Source of the DNA: Flagellimonas sp. 389
GTDB lineage: Bacteria > Bacteroidota > Bacteroidia > Flavobacteriales > Flavobacteriaceae
Assembly: GCF_018449435.1 (NCBI RefSeq)
Contig: NZ_JAHCMU010000015.1
Span: 62,001-126,000, forward strand
Length of the DNA: 64,000 nt
Direction of reading: 5' to 3'
The translations under genes were made by a program, and so were the position numbers. Under the pieces are notes generated by a model, which saw only the letters and a list, made by a program, of their open reading frames with translations, was not told the DNA's origin and did no database searches. Shown one piece after another: positions 35,098 through 44,778 of this stretch (the stretch's first letter is position 1; each line of letters starts with the position of its first letter).

Positions 35098-35547
35098 ATG
35101 TATTGTCATAGTTTCAATGTTGTGCTTCAGGAGGTTCCGGGAGAAGTAAGCCTTTGTTTTTCAATTTCAGGGTGTCCTCTTAGATGTGAAGGATGTCATT
35201 CTCCATTTTTATGGAAAAAGGGAACTGGGACAAAATTGACCCAAAAACTATATGAAGACATCCTCCATAAGTATTATGGATTTGCCACCTGTGTCATTTT
35301 TATGGGAGGGGAATGGCACAAAAATGAATTGATAAGCAGTTTGAAATATGCCCAAGACAAAGGATATAAAACCTGTGTTTATACGGGGCAAGACCAATTA
35401 GATCTAGAAATTTTAAAGCACCTGACCTGGGTCAAGACCGGAAGATGGGACAAATCTTTAGGAGGTTTGGAGAGCAAGACTACCAATCAGGAGTTTATCG
35501 AAGTAAAAACAAAAAAACGACTTAATCATCTATTCCTTAAAACTTAA
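35098..35547 (+). CDS. nrdG: Anaerobic ribonucleotide reductase activating enzyme
   Basis: A 149-residue radical-SAM activase for class III ribonucleotide reductase. The cluster motif is C26-x3-C30-x2-C33 (SGCPLRCEGCHSPF). The GGEW stretch and the short length fit the NrdG branch. It binds a [4Fe-4S] cluster, cleaves S-adenosylmethionine and places the glycyl radical on NrdD under anoxic conditions. It lies 5 bases upstream of nrdD, in the order activase first, which is the reverse of E. coli nrdD-nrdG. The oxygen-labile cluster points to use only when oxygen is scarce. Confidence 0.93.
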   Translation: MYCHSFNVVLQEVPGEVSLCFSISGCPLRCEGCHSPFLWKKGTGTKLTQKLYEDILHKYYGFATCVIFMGGEWHKNELISSLKYAQDKGYKTCVYTGQDQLDLEILKHLTWVKTGRWDKSLGGLESKTTNQEFIEVKTKKRLNHLFLKT

Positions 35548-35552
35548 AATCT

Positions 35553-37334
35553 ATGTTACGACTTTCAGACGGTCAAATAGCAAAAAAAATCAACTTTATT
35601 AACGATTATTTACATTCAGCCAATGCTGCGGATGGTTCTAAAATGGATGCCAATGCCAATGTAACTTCAAAAAACATTGCGACAATGGAAGCTGAACTAA
35701 ATAAGGATATTAACATACAGGTGAACCGGGCACTGGTAAAACAAAAGATAGCGTCCTTGTTCGGGGATGAGCTGGCAAACGAATATACAAGACAGATAGA
35801 ATCCCACGAAATATATATACACGACGAAACTTCTTTAAAACCATATTGTGTATCCATAAGCATGTACCCATTTTTGTTGGACGGACTTACAAAGCTTGGG
35901 GGAGAAAGTAAAGCTCCCAACCATTTGGAAAGCTATTGTGGCGAATTCGTGAATCTAGTTTTTGCAGTAAGTTCCCAATTCGCAGGTGCCTTGGCCACAG
36001 TTGAGTTCTTATTGTATTTTGACCATTTTGCAGCCAAGGACTATGGTGTAGATTATCTGAATACTCACAAAAAACTAATCGAAAATCATTTACAACATGT
36101 AATCTATGCGATTAATCAACCTGCCGCTGCCAGAGGATATCAGTCTGTATTCTGGAATCTCTCCATTTATGATGAAGCCTATTTTAACAGTATGTTCGGG
36201 GATTTCGTATTTCCTAATATGACCAGACCCCATTGGGAAAGCATAAAAAAGCTACAGAAGTTTTTTATGAAATGGTTCAATGAAGAACGAAAAAAGGCCA
36301 TCCTGACTTTTCCAGTCGTCACAGCGGCGATGTTGGTAAAAAATGGAACTCCTGTTGATACACAATTTACCGATATGTGCGCACATGAATTGAGCGAAGG
36401 AAATTCTTTTTTCATCTATCAATCCGAAAATGCGGATAGTCTGGCGTCTTGCTGCCGACTACGAAACGAAATCAGTGACAGTACTTTTAGTTATTCCCTT
36501 GGAGCCGGTGGTGTGGCAACGGGATCTATAAATGTAATAACGTTGAACATGAACAGGCTAATTCAAAAAAAAGCTGATATCGTTGAAGAAGTTCGGAAAG
36601 TCCATAAATATCAAGTAGCCTATAGAAAGCTTATGAATGAATACGATGAAGCAGGATTACTTCCTGTTTACCGTGCCGGTTTTATAGCTATGGACAAACA
36701 ATTTTTGACTATAGGAATCAATGGTATGGTAGAAGCGGCCGAAAGCCAAGGTATAAAAGTGGGCAATCACGCATCGTATAAAAGTTTTGTGAATAGATAC
36801 CTTAAGGCTATCTATAAAGAGAATAGGGCGGCAAAGGAACAATATGGATATATGTTCAATACTGAATTCGTTCCTGCCGAAAACTTAGGTGTAAAAAATG
36901 CCAAATGGGACAGGGAAGACGGTTTGTTTGTTCCCAGGGATTGTTACAATTCCTATTTCTATGTAGTTGAAGACCCTAAAACCAATTCGTTGGATAAAAT
37001 TATGTTGCACGGTAAGGAAATCATACAATACTTGGACGGGGGGTCGGCATTACATCTTAATTTAGAGGAAACTCCCAATAAACAAGGGTTTATAAAGCTT
37101 ATTCATGCAACGGCAGCGGCAGGATGCAATTACTTCTGTTTTAACATAAAGATTACGGTTTGCAACGATTGTTCGCATATCGACAAACGTACTTTGTTGA
37201 AATGCAGTAACTGTAACTCCCAAAATGTAGATTATGCTACCCGGGTGATAGGCTATTTAAAACGCGTGTCCAGTTTTAGTTCCAATCGGCAGAAAGAGCA
37301 TCAATTGAGGCATTACCATACACAGGAAGCATAA
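35553..37334 (+). CDS. nrdD: Class III anaerobic ribonucleoside-triphosphate reductase
   Basis: A 593-residue glycyl-radical enzyme that makes deoxyribonucleotides without oxygen. The glycyl-radical loop is RVIGYLKRVSSF, with Gly567. The zinc site has Cys537, Cys540, Cys551 and Cys554 (VCNDC and KCSNC). The radical-transfer cysteines lie in LKPYCVSI and LASCCRLRNE. The N-terminus begins almost directly at the catalytic domain (NANVTSKNI), so the about 90-residue ATP-cone of many NrdD proteins is missing; overall activity control by ATP/dATP at that site should be absent. It is translated with NrdG. An uncharacterised gene follows after 219 bases. Confidence 0.95.
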   Translation: MLRLSDGQIAKKINFINDYLHSANAADGSKMDANANVTSKNIATMEAELNKDINIQVNRALVKQKIASLFGDELANEYTRQIESHEIYIHDETSLKPYCVSISMYPFLLDGLTKLGGESKAPNHLESYCGEFVNLVFAVSSQFAGALATVEFLLYFDHFAAKDYGVDYLNTHKKLIENHLQHVIYAINQPAAARGYQSVFWNLSIYDEAYFNSMFGDFVFPNMTRPHWESIKKLQKFFMKWFNEERKKAILTFPVVTAAMLVKNGTPVDTQFTDMCAHELSEGNSFFIYQSENADSLASCCRLRNEISDSTFSYSLGAGGVATGSINVITLNMNRLIQKKADIVEEVRKVHKYQVAYRKLMNEYDEAGLLPVYRAGFIAMDKQFLTIGINGMVEAAESQGIKVGNHASYKSFVNRYLKAIYKENRAAKEQYGYMFNTEFVPAENLGVKNAKWDREDGLFVPRDCYNSYFYVVEDPKTNSLDKIMLHGKEIIQYLDGGSALHLNLEETPNKQGFIKLIHATAAAGCNYFCFNIKITVCNDCSHIDKRTLLKCSNCNSQNVDYATRVIGYLKRVSSFSSNRQKEHQLRHYHTQEA

Positions 37335-37368: not shown

Positions 37369-37390
37369 AAACATGATAATTGTCGTGTTT
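37369..37390. promoter_or_regulatory. 22-bp operator-like palindrome downstream of nrdD
   Basis: The 22-bp dyad has half-sites AAACATGATAA and TTGTCGTGTTT, with 9 of 11 positions complementary and no spacer. It lies 35 bases after the nrdD stop. The form (two 11-bp halves, AT-rich centre) resembles operators of Rrf2-family regulators such as NsrR, and an Rrf2 gene lies 2 kb downstream. Binding is inferred. Confidence 0.4.
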
Positions 37391-37553: not shown

Positions 37554-39347
37554 ATGCAATTACATTCATTTCATATTCCTGTGATGGGGATAGGCTTTAC
37601 CATTGACACTCCCTTAAAAGTTTCCCATTTGGGCATAGACTCGGTTATTTCCTTGGTCGATGATATCTTATTGGAAAAAATACGAAAAATGTACTGTGAT
37701 ATGTTCGAAGTACCCTATCACGAAATTACAGAAAGCATAGAGGATTTCAGAGCCAAAAGGATTACTTCCTACCTTAATTTGATTAACGATCTAGCAGAAA
37801 AAAAGTTTAAAAAACTTAAAGATATTACTTCAGGGTACAGCAATGAGTTAAAACAGCACTTTAATATCTTGCCGGATACTTCGGTTCTAAAAGAGAAGTT
37901 TAAGAATTTGACCTCAAATGGGTTTAATTTGGAAGAGCTTAAGGATGTATTGGAAACAAATCTTTCCATGGGTAGTATAGATGTCAATATTATGACCAAA
38001 GTGGATAAGGAAAACTACATAAAAGATAAGCAATTGCCTACTGAATATAATGATGCCCATGCTGCTCTAAGGGGATATGCCAATAGTAAGCTATCCTCTT
38101 CGGTAATACTTTCTGCAGGGATGAACCCAAGGCTGTATAGTTATATGGAAGAATTCGAGGATTTTTATCCTGACATGGAAGGGCAAATCAAAAAGAAAAT
38201 AGTTTTAAAAGTGAGTGATTACAGGTCTGCTTTGATACAAGGAAAGTTTCTTGCAAAGAAAGGATTATGGGTTTCAGAATATAGAATTGAATCCGGACTT
38301 AATTGTGGGGGGCATGCATTTGCGACGGATGGATATCTTATGGGACCTATATTGGCCCAGTTTAGGGACAAGAAAGAAGAATTGATTCAAGAAATACATC
38401 AAATTTTCATCGAAGCCCTTTCCCATAAAGAAGCCTTTGTCCCCAAATCGCCGTTACCAGTTAAAATTACTGCACAAGGAGGCGTGGGCACAGCAGAGGA
38501 ACATCAGTTTTTATTAGATCATTACAAGGTAGATTCAGTAGGTTGGGGATTTCCATTTCTTTTAGTACCCGAAGCGACTACTGTAGATAAAAGTACATTG
38601 GATAAATTGGCCAGCGCTAAAGAAGATGATCTATACTTGAGCGATGTATCTCCGTTGGGCGTACCCTTTAATAACCTAAAGGGAAATACAAAAGACGATG
38701 AAAAGTTAGCTTTAATAGTGAAGGGTCGGCTAGGAAGTTCCTGTCCAAAAAAGCATGTTGCCCTAAACAAGGAATTTACGGAAAAAGGCATCTGTACAGC
38801 ATCACGTCAATATCAATACCTAAAGATCATGGAATTGGATACAAAAGGGCTTTCCAAAGAAACCTACAGCAAGGAATACGATAAAATCGTGCAAAAAACA
38901 TGTGCCTGTGTCGGATTGGGAACGGCTGCGCTGTTAAAGTATGATTTGGATACAAAAAAGGAAGGAGACGGCGTTTCAGTTTGCCCAGGGCCAAATATGG
39001 CATATTTCTCAAAGGAGATGAGTTTAAAAGAAATTACAGATCATATCTATGGAGCGTCCAATGTGGTTACAAGAACTGATCGTCCAAATATGTTTATAAA
39101 AGAACTTCATATTTATATTGATTTTCTGCAAAGTAAACTAGATGAAGTAAAAGATTCCATGGATAACAGACGAAAAAAATACCTGTCAACTTTTGTAAAG
39201 AACCTTAATGAAGGGATTTCCTACTATCAGCATATTTTTGGGAGCTTAAAAACTACTTTTAAAAGTTCCAGGCTTCAAATTTTAAAGGATTTGGAAAAGG
39301 GAAAAAACACCTTGGGCCAGATAGATTCAGAATTGGATAACATATAA
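37554..39347 (+). CDS. Uncharacterised cysteine-rich TIM-barrel-like protein linked to nrdGD
   Basis: A 597-residue cytoplasmic protein I do not recognise. It starts HIPVMGIGFTIDTPLKVSHLGIDSVISLVDD, which looks like the first strands of a TIM barrel. Residues 304-340 (KITAQGGVGTAEEHQFLLDH, then VGWGFPFLLVPEA) resemble the phosphate-binding end of FMN-dependent barrels such as nitronate monooxygenase or glutamate synthase. Cysteines 251 (GLNCGGHAF), 397, 414, 450, 452 (TCAC) and 487 (VCPGP) could hold an iron-sulphur cluster. The last 90 residues are helical and charged. It lies between nrdD and a convergent Rrf2 regulator (7 bases apart). An oxygen-sensitive flavin/Fe-S oxidoreductase used in anoxia is my best guess, but no function is established. 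Confidence 0.6.
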   Translation: MQLHSFHIPVMGIGFTIDTPLKVSHLGIDSVISLVDDILLEKIRKMYCDMFEVPYHEITESIEDFRAKRITSYLNLINDLAEKKFKKLKDITSGYSNELKQHFNILPDTSVLKEKFKNLTSNGFNLEELKDVLETNLSMGSIDVNIMTKVDKENYIKDKQLPTEYNDAHAALRGYANSKLSSSVILSAGMNPRLYSYMEEFEDFYPDMEGQIKKKIVLKVSDYRSALIQGKFLAKKGLWVSEYRIESGLNCGGHAFATDGYLMGPILAQFRDKKEELIQEIHQIFIEALSHKEAFVPKSPLPVKITAQGGVGTAEEHQFLLDHYKVDSVGWGFPFLLVPEATTVDKSTLDKLASAKEDDLYLSDVSPLGVPFNNLKGNTKDDEKLALIVKGRLGSSCPKKHVALNKEFTEKGICTASRQYQYLKIMELDTKGLSKETYSKEYDKIVQKTCACVGLGTAALLKYDLDTKKEGDGVSVCPGPNMAYFSKEMSLKEITDHIYGASNVVTRTDRPNMFIKELHIYIDFLQSKLDEVKDSMDNRRKKYLSTFVKNLNEGISYYQHIFGSLKTTFKSSRLQILKDLEKGKNTLGQIDSELDNI

Positions 39348-39354
39348 ATTGGTA

Positions 39355-39804
39355 TCAGCTAGGTTCAAAACCCTTTAAAGAGAGTAACGTTCCTTTTCTT
39401 TCTATTTCTTCTGCTAGCTTGGAAATTGTTTTATCCCTAAAATCGCTCAATAATTTTTTTTTGAAAGGAGATACAATGTAATGGGCAGGGCAGGGGTTCT
39501 CATCATTGCATTCGGAAAGACCTAAAAAACACTGGTCCAGTTTATAGGTTCCATCAATACAGGATATGATATCCCAAACTGATTTCTCCTTGTTTTTTGG
39601 ATCAAGAAAGAATCCACCACCGGGCCCCATGGCAGAGGATATCAATTTGTTGGCGGTAAGTTGTCTTAACAATTGCGCCAAAAAAGCTTTTGGAATCTCT
39701 ATTTCATCAGCAATTTTTTTCACCCCTATTTTATGGGTCTTATCACTGTGTATTGCTAAATATAATATTGCCCTTATGGCATATTTGCAGGCATTGGAGA
39801 GCAT
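39355..39804 (-). CDS. Rrf2-family Fe-S transcriptional regulator
   Basis: A 149-residue regulator of the IscR/NsrR family. The winged helix is MLSNACKYAIRAILYLAIH, KKIADEIEIPKAFLAQLLRQL, ANKLISSAMGPGGGFFL. The cluster cysteines are C92, C99 and C105 (QCFLGLSECNDENPC), almost the same positions as C92/C98/C104 of E. coli IscR. It can therefore be expected to bind a [2Fe-2S] or [4Fe-4S] cluster and to sense oxygen, nitric oxide or cluster status. It is divergent from nadA (123 bases between) and convergent with the 597-residue protein gene. Likely targets are itself, nadAB, the 597-residue gene and nrdGD; this is inferred from position. Confidence 0.9.
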   Translation of the reverse strand: MLSNACKYAIRAILYLAIHSDKTHKIGVKKIADEIEIPKAFLAQLLRQLTANKLISSAMGPGGGFFLDPKNKEKSVWDIISCIDGTYKLDQCFLGLSECNDENPCPAHYIVSPFKKKLLSDFRDKTISKLAEEIERKGTLLSLKGFEPS

Positions 39805-39855: not shown

Positions 39856-39869
39856 ATGATTTTTATCAT
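39856..39869. promoter_or_regulatory. FNR/CRP-like palindrome upstream of nadA
   Basis: ATGAT (39856-39860), four T, ATCAT (39865-39869) is a perfect dyad with the core TGAT-N4-ATCA of FNR/HcpR-type sites (consensus TTGAT-N4-ATCAA; only the outermost base differs). Its centre lies about 43 bases before the start predicted from the adjacent promoter, the class II activator position. Confidence 0.45.
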
Positions 39870-39927: not shown

Positions 39928-40854
39928 GTGGGCTTAGTAGAAAAAATACAGCAATTAAAAAGAGAGAAAAACGCTATAATTCTGGCACATTATTACCAGC
40001 GTCCCGAAATACAGGAGGTTGCGGATTATGTTGGGGATAGTCTGGGATTGTCCCGAAAGGCTTCTGAGGTTGACGCGGAAATCATCGTATTTGCTGGGGT
40101 TCACTTTATGGCGGAAACGGCAAAAGTTCTTAACCCCACAAAGGAAGTTGTATTGCCAGATCTTACAGCAGGTTGTTCCTTGGCCGATTCTTGTCCACCA
40201 AAAGCTTTTGGAGCCTTTTTAGATGCTCATCCAGATCATATTGTAATTACCTATATCAACTGTTCGGCAGAAATAAAGGCAATGAGCGATTTAGTATGTA
40301 CATCTTCCAATGCCCTAGAAATAGTACAGTCCGTACCAAAGGATAAGCCTATTATTTTTGCGCCGGACAGGAACTTGGGCAAATATATTATCAAACAGAC
40401 AGGCAGGGATATGTTATTGTGGGATGGTAGTTGTGTTGTACACGAAGCATTTTGTATGGATAAGTTATTGGATCTGTACCAAAAGAATTTTGGTGCGGTA
40501 ATTATTGCCCACCCAGAATCTGAAGAACACATTTTAAAAACGGCTAAGTATGTAGGCTCTACCGCTGGGATGATAAAATTTGTAAAGGAACATCCTAAAG
40601 AGAAATTCATAGTCGCCACTGAAGCTGGTATATTGCACGAGATGCGTAAGGCAGTCCCGGGCACGGAATTGATTCCAGCACCAATAGAGGAGGATAACAC
40701 CTGTGCTTGTAGTGAGTGCAGTTATATGAAAGTCAATACACTTCAAAAGCTATATGACTGTTTAAGGCATCAAAGTCCACAGATCGATATACCTGAAGAT
40801 GTTAGAGAAAAAGCTCTCGTTCCCATTGAGCGGATGTTAGAGCTTTCAAATTAA
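39928..40854 (+). CDS. nadA: Quinolinate synthase
   Basis: A 308-residue cytoplasmic enzyme that condenses iminoaspartate with dihydroxyacetone phosphate to quinolinate in de novo NAD synthesis. The start codon is GTG. Signatures: [25 protein letters not shown], the first cluster cysteine in [54 protein letters not shown] and the C-terminal cluster cysteines in [12 protein letters not shown]. The [4Fe-4S] cluster makes it oxygen- and NO-sensitive. It is followed after 6 bases by nadB. nadC is not in the window. Placement beside an Rrf2 sensor suits a gene whose product is damaged by oxygen. Confidence 0.96.
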
Positions 40855-40860
40855 GTATAA

Positions 40861-42414
40861 ATGGTTTCTGTAGACTATCTCGTAATCGGTTCAGGAATTG
40901 CAGGATTGACATTCGCCATAAAAATTGCGGAAAAATTTCATGATAAGACAGTTCTCATGGTCACCAAGTCCGATGAGGAGGAATCGAATACCAAATACGC
41001 CCAAGGTGGAGTTGCCATCGTTTTGGACACCAATAAAGATTCTTTTGATAAGCATATAAGGGATACCCAAACAGCTGGCGATGGCCTATGTGAAGCATCG
41101 GTTGTGGAAATGGTCGTCAAAGAAGGGCCAAAAAGACTTCAAAACCTAATACAATGGGGAATCGATTTTGATAGGAATGTCAAAGGTAATTTGAATTTAG
41201 GCAAGGAAGGAGGACATTCCGAGTTTCGCATTGTGCATTACAAGGACATAACGGGTTACGAGATAGAAAACACATTGCTAAAGCGTGCTTATCAATTGGC
41301 CAATGTTACCATATTGAGCCATCATTTTGCAATAGACCTTATTACAGAGCATCACTTGCAGATTATGAATCCAGAACATATTTCTTGTTACGGTGCTTAT
41401 GTTCTCAACCAAAAAACCGGAAACATAAAAACTATAAAAGCTGGTTCAACGATATTGGCTACTGGTGGTATCGGTAGGGTATATGGGCATACTACGAATC
41501 CTGCTATTGCAACAGGAGATGGTATTGCAATGGCCTACAGGGCCAAAGCACGAATTTCTGATATGGAGTTTGTCCAGTTCCATCCAACGGCATTGTATAG
41601 TCTTGAGGAAGGTCAGTCCTTTTTGATTTCTGAAGCCGTAAGGGGTTTTGGTGCGTATCTGCGCAATAAGAACGGGGACAGATTTATGCTGGATTATCAT
41701 GAGCGCGCAGAATTGGCATCTAGGGATATCGTTTCAAGAAGTATTGACAATGAACTTAAAAAAACTGGAGACGAATATGTGTATCTGGATTGTACCCACC
41801 TTGATATGAAAAAGTTCAAAGCGCATTTTCCAAATATTTATGAAAAATGTGCCGTACTACATATTGATATAGCAAAAGATTGGATACCAGTAGTTCCAGC
41901 TTCACACTACCTGTGTGGCGGTATTGTGGTGGATACAGATGGCAAAACCTCTATAAACAATCTTTTTGCATGTGGGGAATGCTCAAGAACCGGACTGCAT
42001 GGGGCAAACAGGTTGGCATCAAACTCCCTATTGGAAGCATTGGTCTATGCCCATAATATTTACGAATACCTTCAAGTTAATCCAACTTCACCAGGAGCAA
42101 TATCTATTCCTGACTGGAACGATAAAGGAACTCGTGTTTCTAAAGAGCATATTGTTATAACGCATAATTTGAAGAAATTACAAGCTCTAATGCGTGATTA
42201 CATAGGTATCGTACGCAGTAATCATAGATTATTGCAAGCTGCAAAACATTTGAATTTGATGTATAAGGAAATAGAGGAGTTCTATAATGGGGCAAAAGTA
42301 AACACTGCGCTATGTGAATTGCGAAATATGATCAATGTCGCGCATCTAATAATTAATCAATCACTGGACAGAAAAGAAAACAAAGGTGGATATTTCAATA
42401 TGGACAATCAGTAG
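40861..42414 (+). CDS. nadB: L-aspartate oxidase
   Basis: A 517-residue FAD enzyme that oxidises L-aspartate to iminoaspartate for NadA, using oxygen or, in anoxia, fumarate. The FAD-binding motif is VIGSGIAGLTFAI; then SNTKYAQGGVAIV, the substrate region EGGHSEFRIVH, ATGGIGRVYGHTTNP, MEFVQFHPTALY and CGECSRTGLHGANRLASNSLLEALVY. The length is normal and all blocks are intact. It forms an operon with nadA. The last about 65 codons and the 3' flank have a decayed second copy at 44789-44975, on the far side of the cytochrome gene. Confidence 0.96.
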   Translation: MVSVDYLVIGSGIAGLTFAIKIAEKFHDKTVLMVTKSDEEESNTKYAQGGVAIVLDTNKDSFDKHIRDTQTAGDGLCEASVVEMVVKEGPKRLQNLIQWGIDFDRNVKGNLNLGKEGGHSEFRIVHYKDITGYEIENTLLKRAYQLANVTILSHHFAIDLITEHHLQIMNPEHISCYGAYVLNQKTGNIKTIKAGSTILATGGIGRVYGHTTNPAIATGDGIAMAYRAKARISDMEFVQFHPTALYSLEEGQSFLISEAVRGFGAYLRNKNGDRFMLDYHERAELASRDIVSRSIDNELKKTGDEYVYLDCTHLDMKKFKAHFPNIYEKCAVLHIDIAKDWIPVVPASHYLCGGIVVDTDGKTSINNLFACGECSRTGLHGANRLASNSLLEALVYAHNIYEYLQVNPTSPGAISIPDWNDKGTRVSKEHIVITHNLKKLQALMRDYIGIVRSNHRLLQAAKHLNLMYKEIEEFYNGAKVNTALCELRNMINVAHLIINQSLDRKENKGGYFNMDNQ

Positions 42415-42498: not shown

Positions 42499-44778
42499 AT
42501 GGCCCAAAAGCCCAAGATAAATATGATTGTATTCCGAAGAGCACTATTTCTTGTGTATGCCCTTTCTCTTTTTCAATTATCCTGTAACGGGAAAAAAGAA
42601 ACCTACATTGCCCTTCCAAAGAATATCCACAATGTTTTTTTATCAACAAAAAGTATTCCTGACAGTAATTTTTTAGGCAGTGAAAGCTGCAAGGAATGCC
42701 ATAAGGAACAATTTGAAAAATGGACAGATAGCCACCATGACAAAGCGATGCAAAAAGCAGATAGGGAGACCGTTTTGGCAGGATTTAAAGGGGAAGCGTT
42801 CAAAAGTCAGGGGATTACGTCCCGTTTTTATGAAAAAGATGGCGATTTTTTTGTAAACACGGAAGGTCCCAATGGGAACTATCACGATTATAAAATTGTG
42901 TACACCTTCGGGATTGCCCCGTTGCAACAGTATATCGTTCAATTTCCCGATGGAAGATACCAGTGTTTAAGAACAGCTTGGGATACCGAGAACAGAAGAT
43001 GGTTTGATTTGTATCCCGATTTTAAAGTAATCCATTCCGAATGGCTCCATTGGTCGAGAGGCGGGTTAAATTGGAACAATATGTGTGCGGATTGCCACTC
43101 CACAAATATTCGTAAAAACTATAATGAGCATAAAAGGGCATATAATACAAAGTTTGCGATTATCAATGTAAGTTGCGAAGCTTGTCATGGACCTGGAAAG
43201 AAGCATGTGAACGAAGTAAGATCATTGGGTTCAGCTTACGTATCCCACAATGGAGAAACTATGTGGATGAGTTCCGAAACAACACCCAAGGGACTGGTAG
43301 ATGAATGTGCTAGATGCCATATGCGCCGGGAACAGATTTCCGAAGGATATAATTTTACTGGAACAATGCTCGATCATTATTTTCCACAGTTATTGGAATA
43401 TCCCATATACCATCCAGACGGTCAAATATTGGATGAGGACTATGTATACGGTTCCTTTATCCAGAGCAAAATGTACCAGAACAATGTTTCCTGCAATAAT
43501 TGTCATGATTCACATTCCCTGAAACTAAAATTTGAAGGAAATAAATTATGCCTTCAATGCCATGTGCCCGAAAAATACGATACGGCATTGCATCATTTCC
43601 ATGAGACAGGCAATCAAGGCGCAAAATGTATCGGCTGTCATATGCCCGGTAAAATATATATGGGCAATGATTTTAGACGAGACCATAGTTTTAGAGTACC
43701 TCGACCAGATTTAAGCATTGCATATAACACTCCCAATGCTTGTACGCAATGCCACACGGACAAAGACGACCAATGGGCATGGGAAGTTTTTAAAAGACAA
43801 TTTGGGAAGCCGCAGATTCATTTTTCCGAACTATTGGCACCAGGGGTTATGGGAGAACCCGGAGCCGATATTGCCTTGACCAGTCTGGTTAATGATAGCA
43901 CACAACCAGAAATTGCAAGGGCCTCAGCAGTAAAGGCCTTGTCAAATTACACTATACAAAATGGCATCAATGCTTTTATTGCACTTTTAAATGATGAATC
44001 TCCTCTGGTCAGGGGAGCAACGGTAGATGTTTTGAGCGAGATAAACTCCTTAGAGTTTATGGACTATATATTGCCAAGATTAAAAGATTCTAAAAGAGCG
44101 GTTAGGATAAAGGCATTTTATGCACTTGGTACGGTTCCCGAGAATCAGATTCCTGCGGATTATAAGAAAGTCTACCAAAAAGTCAAAGAGGAGTTTTTTG
44201 GATATTTAAAAATCAATGCTGATTTTCCTGGGGGACAGGCAAGGAAAGCAGCCTTCTATCAAAAGAAAGGAGACTTGGACAGAGCCAGAGAAGCTTATTT
44301 AAAAGCATTGAGCATAGATGGTAATAATAATACCATACGTAGCAACCTGGCCAATCTATACTACCATTTAGGAGAAACCGGCAATGCAGAAAAAACTTTT
44401 AGGGAAGTAATAAAACAAGAACCGGAATTTGGGTTTACCTATTATTCCTTGGCACTGCTTCTAGCAGAACTGAAAAGGACAGACGAAGCAATTTTACAAA
44501 TGGAACAAGCGCACAAGTTGATGCCCCAAAATATCAGGGTCATTTACAATCTGGGGCTCTTGTACCAAAAGAAGGGAAGGAATAAAGAAGCCGAAAAAAT
44601 CCTTGTTGGGGGATTGGAACTGGAACCAGAGCATGAAGAACTGTTATATGCTTTGGCATATCATTATATAGTACAAGGACAAAAGCAGAAGGCTGTGAAG
44701 CTGACAGACAAAATTATAAGGCTATATCCCAATAGACCTCAATACCAAAACATGGCGGAACAAGCTGGAGCGTTATAG
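42499..44778 (+). CDS. Octahaem cytochrome c lipoprotein with HEAT-like and TPR repeats
   Basis: A 759-residue envelope lipoprotein (lipobox FQLSCNG, start MAQKPK or MIVFRR 24 bases later). Eight CxxCH haem-c motifs have their first cysteines at residues 64, 196, 226, 270, 332, 351, 377 and 415. Residues about 450-560 look like HEAT-type helical repeats (ARASAVKALSNYTI, PLVRGATVDVLSE, RAVRIKAFYALG). Residues about 585-750 form TPRs (GDLDRAREAYLKALSIDG, GNAEKTFREVIKQEPEFG). It belongs to the multihaem TPR cytochromes related to cytochrome c554/NrfA-like proteins and probably moves electrons in the periplasm or at the outer membrane. It lies between nadB and a nadB remnant, so it appears to have been inserted or duplicated with that region. 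Confidence 0.9.
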   Translation: MAQKPKINMIVFRRALFLVYALSLFQLSCNGKKETYIALPKNIHNVFLSTKSIPDSNFLGSESCKECHKEQFEKWTDSHHDKAMQKADRETVLAGFKGEAFKSQGITSRFYEKDGDFFVNTEGPNGNYHDYKIVYTFGIAPLQQYIVQFPDGRYQCLRTAWDTENRRWFDLYPDFKVIHSEWLHWSRGGLNWNNMCADCHSTNIRKNYNEHKRAYNTKFAIINVSCEACHGPGKKHVNEVRSLGSAYVSHNGETMWMSSETTPKGLVDECARCHMRREQISEGYNFTGTMLDHYFPQLLEYPIYHPDGQILDEDYVYGSFIQSKMYQNNVSCNNCHDSHSLKLKFEGNKLCLQCHVPEKYDTALHHFHETGNQGAKCIGCHMPGKIYMGNDFRRDHSFRVPRPDLSIAYNTPNACTQCHTDKDDQWAWEVFKRQFGKPQIHFSELLAPGVMGEPGADIALTSLVNDSTQPEIARASAVKALSNYTIQNGINAFIALLNDESPLVRGATVDVLSEINSLEFMDYILPRLKDSKRAVRIKAFYALGTVPENQIPADYKKVYQKVKEEFFGYLKINADFPGGQARKAAFYQKKGDLDRAREAYLKALSIDGNNNTIRSNLANLYYHLGETGNAEKTFREVIKQEPEFGFTYYSLALLLAELKRTDEAILQMEQAHKLMPQNIRVIYNLGLLYQKKGRNKEAEKILVGGLELEPEHEELLYALAYHYIVQGQKQKAVKLTDKIIRLYPNRPQYQNMAEQAGAL

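Follow-up and report, generated by a model that had tools for sequence, protein, structure and literature searches.

UfaA of Neisseria gonorrhoeae is said to be induced anaerobically and to be required for anaerobic synthesis of unsaturated fatty acids, a finding credited to Isabella and Clark in 2011. FabX of Helicobacter pylori uses O2 as its electron acceptor and contacts flavin mononucleotide (FMN) through F339-T340-G341 in its crystal structure. According to PMC8626469, FabX is a flavoprotein of the nitronate monooxygenase (NMO) family in which H182 is catalytic and C300, C304, C308 and C320 carry a [4Fe-4S] cluster; it dehydrogenates and isomerises decanoyl-acyl carrier protein (ACP), and its helix alpha-7 is the ACP-binding helix. 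UfaA (NGO1024) is a FabX relative, 36% to a Bacteroidales FabX according to PMC11300592. Here we compare these enzymes with a protein encoded in a stretch of 64,000 nucleotides from Flagellimonas sp. 389 (Flavobacteriaceae; contig NZ_JAHCMU010000015.1, positions 62,001 to 126,000 of the forward strand), hereafter the window. The protein had been left unrecognised in an earlier note made from the sequence alone.

37554..39347, + strand: 597-amino-acid protein of a new family, with a TIM barrel, an insert, a Cys-rich domain and C-terminal helices

The reading frame is intact over 597 codons and begins with ATG. The protein reached no curated cut-off in Pfam or NCBIfam and matched 0 Pfam families at E 1; a sequence search of the PDB gave no match at E 10, a PHROG search gave nothing better than E 0.02 (chance level), and a plasmid search for the family gave no match. 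Matches to an apolipoprotein and to PRK00420 were dismissed as chance-level. A literature search, made mostly without subscription papers, recognised no paper on the family, which does not prove that none exists. Our analysis now places this orphan: it is an unnamed, conserved family distantly related to FabX, and two of its invariant cysteines, predicted to lie beside the flavin, are unusual. The assignment of fold and family is well supported, and the protein is very probably a FabX-branch flavin/iron-sulphur (Fe-S) oxidoreductase of low-oxygen metabolism. In full, we propose an anaerobically induced FMN/Fe-S oxidoreductase of acyl thioesters that probably serves oxygen-independent unsaturated fatty acid synthesis, a statement that we consider about evenly poised between right and wrong.

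The fold links the protein to FabX. An AlphaFold2 model built from 34 sequences (34 of 47 family proteins, near-duplicates and fragments being left out) had a pLDDT of 87.7 and a pTM of 0.90, and its top five Foldseek matches in the PDB were chains of H. pylori FabX (E 5e-9 to 2e-7; TM-score 0.60-0.65 by target). These were followed by the enoyl reductase MlnA and by PA1024/2-nitropropane dioxygenase, fatty acid synthase (FAS) domains were also among the fold matches, and the single match below 0.001 in a viral fold library was a phage 2-nitropropane dioxygenase-like protein. The earlier note had read the start of the protein as a TIM-like flavin barrel and had set structure prediction with a fold search beforehand as the test, a fold unrelated to flavin barrels being the refuting outcome; a flavin barrel was found. 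The fold search and conservation in 67/67 members also showed the FMN-type TIM barrel and GGH-loop histidine of the Pfam family NMO (PF03060), with a predicted FMN site, while the protein stayed below the curated cut-off of PF03060.

Relatives of FabX were collected by searching 46 of 247 genomes drawn across Bacteroidota with PF03060 and then searching with the first candidate. Among the matches listed were three kinds: true FabX (L189 in G294 and L190 in G228, L189 matching PDB FabX at 3e-71), FX-type proteins of 418-458 amino acids (the first PDB match of L147 is FabX, E 7e-28) and T3-type proteins of 472-498 amino acids. The FX-type proteins (L147-L150, L152-L181), four of which were read and show CxC and CWTCG motifs, seem to be another FabX relative; the T3-type proteins (L182-L188) read RxCDLGYL...RC...CLCN and add another member to the Fe-S NMO branch. 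An alignment of 67 members of our family (67 of 70 loci; fragments L043 and L046, the duplicate L029 and the short loci L001-L017 were left out) was compared by hhalign with an alignment of 2 FabX, 13 FX-type (from 52 genome matches, 30 of them fetched as loci) and 6 of 7 T3-type proteins (L183 is nearly identical to L182). The two matched with a probability of 96.4% and a P of 1e-9 over 408 columns, positions 15-560. The best of 20 column-shuffled controls reached P 0.11; these were run at the default posterior threshold and the main comparison at a lower one, on the assumption that P-values are unaffected. Against a plain NMO/FabK alignment the match was weak (P 0.058 or 0.024 in two comparisons).

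Equivalents of FabX active-site residues are conserved within the family. Across the 67 members, which share 41-69% identity, 72 columns never vary when gaps are ignored, and the motifs lie as follows:

38220..38261, + strand: helix, residues 223-236, aligned with FabX alpha-7
38289..38315, + strand: E-S-G-L-N-C-G-G-H, residues 246-254, 67/67 except L249 (65/67); equivalent of the FabX E175...H182 catalytic/FMN loop
38478..38504, + strand: GGVGTAEEH, residues 309-317; equivalent of the NMO/FabX GGI loop
38649..38666, + strand: S-P-x-G-x-P, residues 366-371, with S366, P367 and G369 in 67/67; FabX counterpart SPVGYP
38742..38909, + strand: C397, C414 and C450-x-C452, residues 397-452, proposed [4Fe-4S] ligands, 67/67
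38982..38996, + strand: CPGPN, residues 477-481, with C477-P480 in 67/67; set against FabX FTGAN (F339-T340-G341)

Invariant in all 67 members are E246, S247, G248, N250, G252, G253 and H254, together with the cysteines C251, C397, C414, C450, C452 and C477. In the alignment, N145 corresponds to FabX N99, E246 to E175, GGH254 to GGH182 with one inserted residue, C251 to S179 and G309-G310 to G220-G221, so that equivalents of E175/H182, N99, the GG loop and SPxGxP are all present. The correspondence of CPGPN with FTGAN was judged by eye, MAFFT placing a gap there. In the helix aligned with alpha-7, R224 is found in 67/67, K231 in 64/67 (the other 3 have R), K235 in 64/67 and K236 in 65/67. By hhalign, C397, C414, C450 and C452 pair with C319, C332, C358 and C360 of the FX-type proteins, an alignment that is weak when taken alone (P 0.0022); judged from these sequence patterns, the four cysteines are the probable ligands of a [4Fe-4S] cluster close to the flavin. 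The earlier note had pointed to the GGVGTAEEH motif, which is indeed present, and had listed six cysteines, five of which are correct (251, 397, 414, 450 and 452); the sixth, at 487, is a lysine, and the invariant cysteine is C477.

The protein and FabX (PDB 7e1q) have in common the barrel fold, the E...GGH active-site motif, the asparagine of the GxIxVN strand, the GG loop, SPxGxP, a C-terminal Cys-rich part and a basic helix at the ACP-binding position. They differ in length (597 amino acids here, 363 in FabX), and identity in the structural alignment is about 15%. Unlike FabX, the family has the extra invariant residues C251 and C477, a different cysteine spacing, a helical insert at about residues 38-103 (from the profile alignment) and C-terminal helices. 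The FX-type and T3-type proteins of Bacteroidota share the barrel motifs and a C-x(12-19)-C-...-C-x-C pattern with the family, whereas two of them, when tested, matched Pfam NMO, and these proteins lack the CPGP motif and so long an insert. The enoyl reductases of the PfaD and trans-acyltransferase polyketide synthase type (MlnA, 4z38) are fold neighbours, but the protein does not match the PfaD model TIGR02814. PfaD was also rejected as the family of the protein, TIGR02814 giving weak, short matches and none over cut-off in the 247 genomes.

The family is widespread in Bacteroidota. A relative is encoded by 17 of the 59 related genomes (by 8 of 36 within the genus) and by 96 of the 247 Bacteroidota genomes, almost always as a single full-length copy; the named genome collection holds 30 further loci, Cellulophaga and Zobellia among their sources. 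The family gene has one internal stop in two of these 96 genomes (G078 and G119), and one genome has, besides its intact copy, another that has decayed and contains several stops (L018, G052:C1:4371173-4372946). Occurrence beyond Bacteroidota comes from loci of the named collection, the survey itself having covered the 247 Bacteroidota genomes. Family copies were seen on contigs of metagenome-assembled genomes (MAGs) labelled Ectothiorhodospiraceae (L044, 50% identity), Ignavibacteriales (L043, 68%) and Chlorobi (L050, 64%), which may reflect transfer or mis-binning.

Regulation by low oxygen was suggested by the promoter region and by the genes around it. The locus in the window is arranged as follows:

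35098..35547, + strand: nrdG, above cut-off for NCBIfam RNR_activ_nrdG3 (TIGR02826)
35553..37334, + strand: nrdD, above cut-off for RNR_anaer_Bdell (TIGR02827)
37369..37390, + strand: Crp/Fnr-type palindrome AAACATGATAATTGTCGTGTTT, 3' of nrdD, its end 164 bases upstream of the family gene's start codon
39355..39804, - strand: Rrf2-family regulator (Pfam/NCBIfam), convergent, 7 bases past the stop of the family gene
39857..39868, no strand assigned: exact box TGAYNNNNRTCA / TGATTTTTATCA in the divergent Rrf2/nadA promoter region
39928..40854, + strand: nadA, quinolinate synthase (Pfam/NCBIfam)
40861..42414, + strand: nadB, L-aspartate oxidase (Pfam/NCBIfam)

The core TGAYNNNNRTCA, which was taken from other loci, was found within 250 base pairs (bp) upstream of the family gene in 23 of 43 distinct loci (43 of 47; three duplicates and one fragment were left out), where 200 shuffled sets gave a mean of 0.71 and a maximum of 4. 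A second, overlapping set comprised 35 loci, of which 8 were new and 27 came from that named collection; here 27 loci have the core within 300 bp before the gene. Besides the gene's own boxes, these 35 loci contain 20 others in intergenic positions, at a density of 0.34 per kb compared with 0.049 inside genes. These others precede cbb3 ccoNO in each of the two loci that include its start (three more are truncated), ccoP in 1/5, two of three cytochrome c genes paired with a COX1-family (haem-copper oxidase/NO reductase-like) gene, copper nitrite reductase (L040), a Crp-type regulator (L025) and nadA in 4 of 11 loci, two of these boxes being common with a divergent Rrf2 gene; some precede genes without a clear low-oxygen role. 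The core is one that we take to be FNR-like, and because of this core and its targets the box reads as a Crp/Fnr operator. The family gene shares its promoter box with known low-oxygen genes, the mark of membership in a Crp/Fnr-type anaerobic regulon. In the window, AAACATGATAATTGTCGTGTTT is the sole match with up to 3 mismatches (shuffles, mean 0.21); this 22-base form was written after the window and other loci had been viewed, and the one hit that it gives is therefore no independent evidence. The window contains 7 exact boxes of the TGAYNNNNRTCA / TGATTTTTATCA kind, where 4.35 are expected, and the one at 39857-39868 lies in a divergent promoter, so that Rrf2 and nadAB may share low-oxygen control. 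Rfam, sigma-70 and terminator scans gave nothing above chance.

The genes near the family gene point the same way, nosZ among them, which lies within 20 kb in 14 of the 46 genomes that have both. Within six genes of it in the 67 loci we found Rrf2-type regulators in 9, RIC in 5 (5/5 over the TIGR03652 cut-off), hemN in 3 (3/3 over TIGR00538), a CcoG cluster in 5 (one confirmed), a NosD cluster in 4 (one confirmed) and a copper nitrite reductase cluster in 3 (one confirmed). The low-oxygen use that the earlier note had envisaged is therefore backed both by the operator and by neighbouring low-oxygen genes, and the count of homologue neighbourhoods that it called for does reveal a link with anaerobic genes, the link with nrdD being local. 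Its reading of the locus itself also agrees with ours, nrdG and nrdD lying upstream (with 219 bp between nrdD and the family gene) and the convergent Rrf2 gene 7 bases beyond the end. A gene pair near the family gene in L023 and L026 was confirmed only as COX1-family plus cytochrome c, and its reading as norBC was not confirmed. A NosY-type permease and a Nos ABC ATPase were labelled by eye; family searches name neither, and no evidential use is made of them.

Other features were observed at these loci. The Rrf2-family protein of the window (39355-39804) has three closely spaced cysteines, C-x6-C-x5-C, an arrangement like that of Fe-S Rrf2 regulators. In two other loci, L114 and L142, the family gene has a codirectional Rrf2 gene beside it, at distances of 24 bp and 133 bp respectively. 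Directly 3' of nadB, positions 42499-44778 encode a multihaem c-type cytochrome of 759 amino acids with HEAT and TPR repeats. A gene of the tyrosine phenol-lyase/tryptophanase type lies near the family gene in L138, L140, L117 and L132, that of L140 being over the TIGR02618 cut-off.

Taken with the comparison to FabX, we envisage an unnamed branch on the [4Fe-4S]-bearing FabX side of the NMO/FabK superfamily, in which the catalytic E...GGH motif (E246...H254) would belong to a predicted FMN-binding TIM barrel, and a putative [4Fe-4S] domain would follow. The gene would be transcribed from its own Crp/Fnr-type promoter when O2 is scarce or nitric oxide (NO) is present, as part of a low-oxygen/denitrification gene set. 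The enzyme may carry out an FMN-dependent dehydrogenation/isomerisation of an acyl-ACP or acyl-coenzyme A (CoA) thioester, so that unsaturated fatty acids would form with no call on the oxygen required by the cell's desaturases, and its electrons would exit through the Fe-S cluster to an acceptor other than O2, with the invariant C251 and C477 beside the flavin involved. The computations show the fold, the family, the conserved residues, the operator and the neighbourhood; from them we infer the binding of FMN and the cluster, and likewise substrate, product and electron acceptor. In function UfaA is a close parallel, a likeness drawn from its description and not from sequence. A bolder version, in which a FabX-branch enzyme induced with low-oxygen respiration provides a widespread, unrecognised O2-free route to unsaturated fatty acids in Bacteroidota and a C251/C477 dithiol/disulphide relay replaces O2 as first acceptor, is offered as a doubtful conjecture.

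The distribution of fatty-acid genes is consistent with such a role. FabA proper (counted at more than 200 bits; 1 over the curated cut-off) was found in 3 of the 247 genomes and in 0 of the 96 with the family gene. FX-type genes (counted at more than 700 bits) occur in 52 of the 247 genomes, 0 of which have the family gene (expected 20, p 1e-13), and the two true-FabX genomes among the matches listed are without it. A gene of the desaturase family (PF00487) is present in 75 of the 96 genomes with the family gene and in 71 of the 151 without.

Several observations weigh against the proposed role. No significant single-sequence or hidden Markov model match to FabX or NMO was obtained with phmmer or hmmsearch, including the FabX of the PDB, and hhalign gave P values of only 0.0014 against the FX-type alignment alone and 0.016 against the T3-type alone. 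A strong score was reached only with combined relatives (P 5e-8 for FX-type plus T3-type, and 1e-9 once FabX was added); the case for homology is thus built on the fold together with the combined profile, not on any one pairwise match. The cysteine spacing, C397-x16-C414-x35-C450-x-C452, differs from the C-x3-C-x3-C-...-C of FabX (C300/C304/C308/C320). Among 40 phylum-diverse loci, chosen by hand for diversity from the 96 genomes, the box precedes the gene in only 8, namely 7 of the 8 loci of the window's class plus one other, so that the remaining classes must rely on different signals, or on none. Supporting fatty-acid gene context was seen in 1 of the 67 loci only, MAG locus L037, where fabH-accB-accC lie 104 bp upstream of the gene in the same orientation. 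The mutual exclusion with FX-type genes and FabA may be phylogeny, because all 52 FX-type genomes fall in two families, 50 of them in one (f31). Lastly, 21 of the 96 genomes have no desaturase match, and a backup for a desaturase therefore misfits them directly.

Other readings of the same evidence were considered. The fold and cofactors could serve another reaction, that of an enoyl-ACP/CoA reductase (FabK- or PfaD-like) or an ene-reductase at low oxygen. The superfamily does hold FabK and PfaD-type enoyl reductases, and MlnA and FAS domains are among the fold matches, but the Cys-rich domain follows the FabX branch and not FabK (plain NMO/FabK, P 0.024), TIGR02814 stays below cut-off in all 247 genomes, and separate FabK-like genes are present in the genomes looked at; we regard this reading as unlikely. 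An accessory role in denitrification or NO stress, whether reduction or detoxification of nitro, nitroso or nitronate compounds or electron transfer in the nos system, would suit the name of the superfamily and the RIC, copper nitrite reductase and haem-copper/NO reductase-like pair near the gene in some loci. NosZ (PF18764) is more frequent in genomes with the family gene (46/96 vs. 40/151 without; p 9e-4), and in 14 of the 46 genomes carrying both, nosZ lies within 20 kb of it, where the chance per genome, taken by assumption as 40 kb of about 4 Mb, is 0.012. Yet 50 of the 96 genomes have no nosZ match, 40 genomes have nosZ without the gene, separate nitronate monooxygenase-like genes exist in sampled genomes (L087), and NMO-type chemistry consumes O2, as stated for Npd in PMC3032703. 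Such a role thus appears quite improbable.

Two further readings draw on adjacent genes. The earlier note had suggested that the protein might donate electrons to class III ribonucleotide reductase (RNR) or act as its partner. The gene does stand directly 3' of nrdD here, and nrdD and nrdG are each within six genes in 5 of the 67 loci, nrdD directly upstream in 5/67. Inside the genus NrdD and the gene travel together (7/8 vs. 3/28, p 1e-4), which fits a shared anaerobic gene set. Across Bacteroidota, NrdD occurs in 8 of the 96 genomes that carry the gene and in 10 of the 151 that do not (Fisher p 0.62), lying within 20 kb of it in 3 of the 8; it is thus missing from 88 of the 96, the gene is missing from 10 of 18 NrdD genomes, and the gene has its own operator between nrdD and itself. 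Because of this phyletic profile the RNR partnership was set aside as scarcely credible. A role in nicotinamide adenine dinucleotide (NAD) or tryptophan metabolism is suggested by nadA in 13 and nadB in 12 of the 67 loci within six genes, and by a tryptophan dioxygenase gene upstream in L022 (Trp_dioxygenase, Pfam over cut-off; a weaker TIGR03036 match in L025), but the first set, which is mostly Flavobacteriaceae, supplies 11 of these 13 nadA loci, and the same box precedes nadA in 4 of 11 loci, so that shared regulation suffices for the adjacency. We consider this role very improbable. What the earlier note observed was partly confirmed, and its interpretation as a low-oxygen flavin/Fe-S enzyme tied to nucleotide reduction partly supported.

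About two in five of the sampled Bacteroidota have the family gene, which has no name in the libraries searched. If its product forms unsaturated acyl chains in the absence of O2, it would explain how facultative Bacteroidota with O2-dependent desaturases and without FabA keep their membranes fluid in anoxia, and it would allow a direct test of how a FabX-type enzyme can work free of O2, the question raised by UfaA of Neisseria. If not, the family would still be a conserved flavin/Fe-S enzyme linked to the genes of low-oxygen and N2O respiration.

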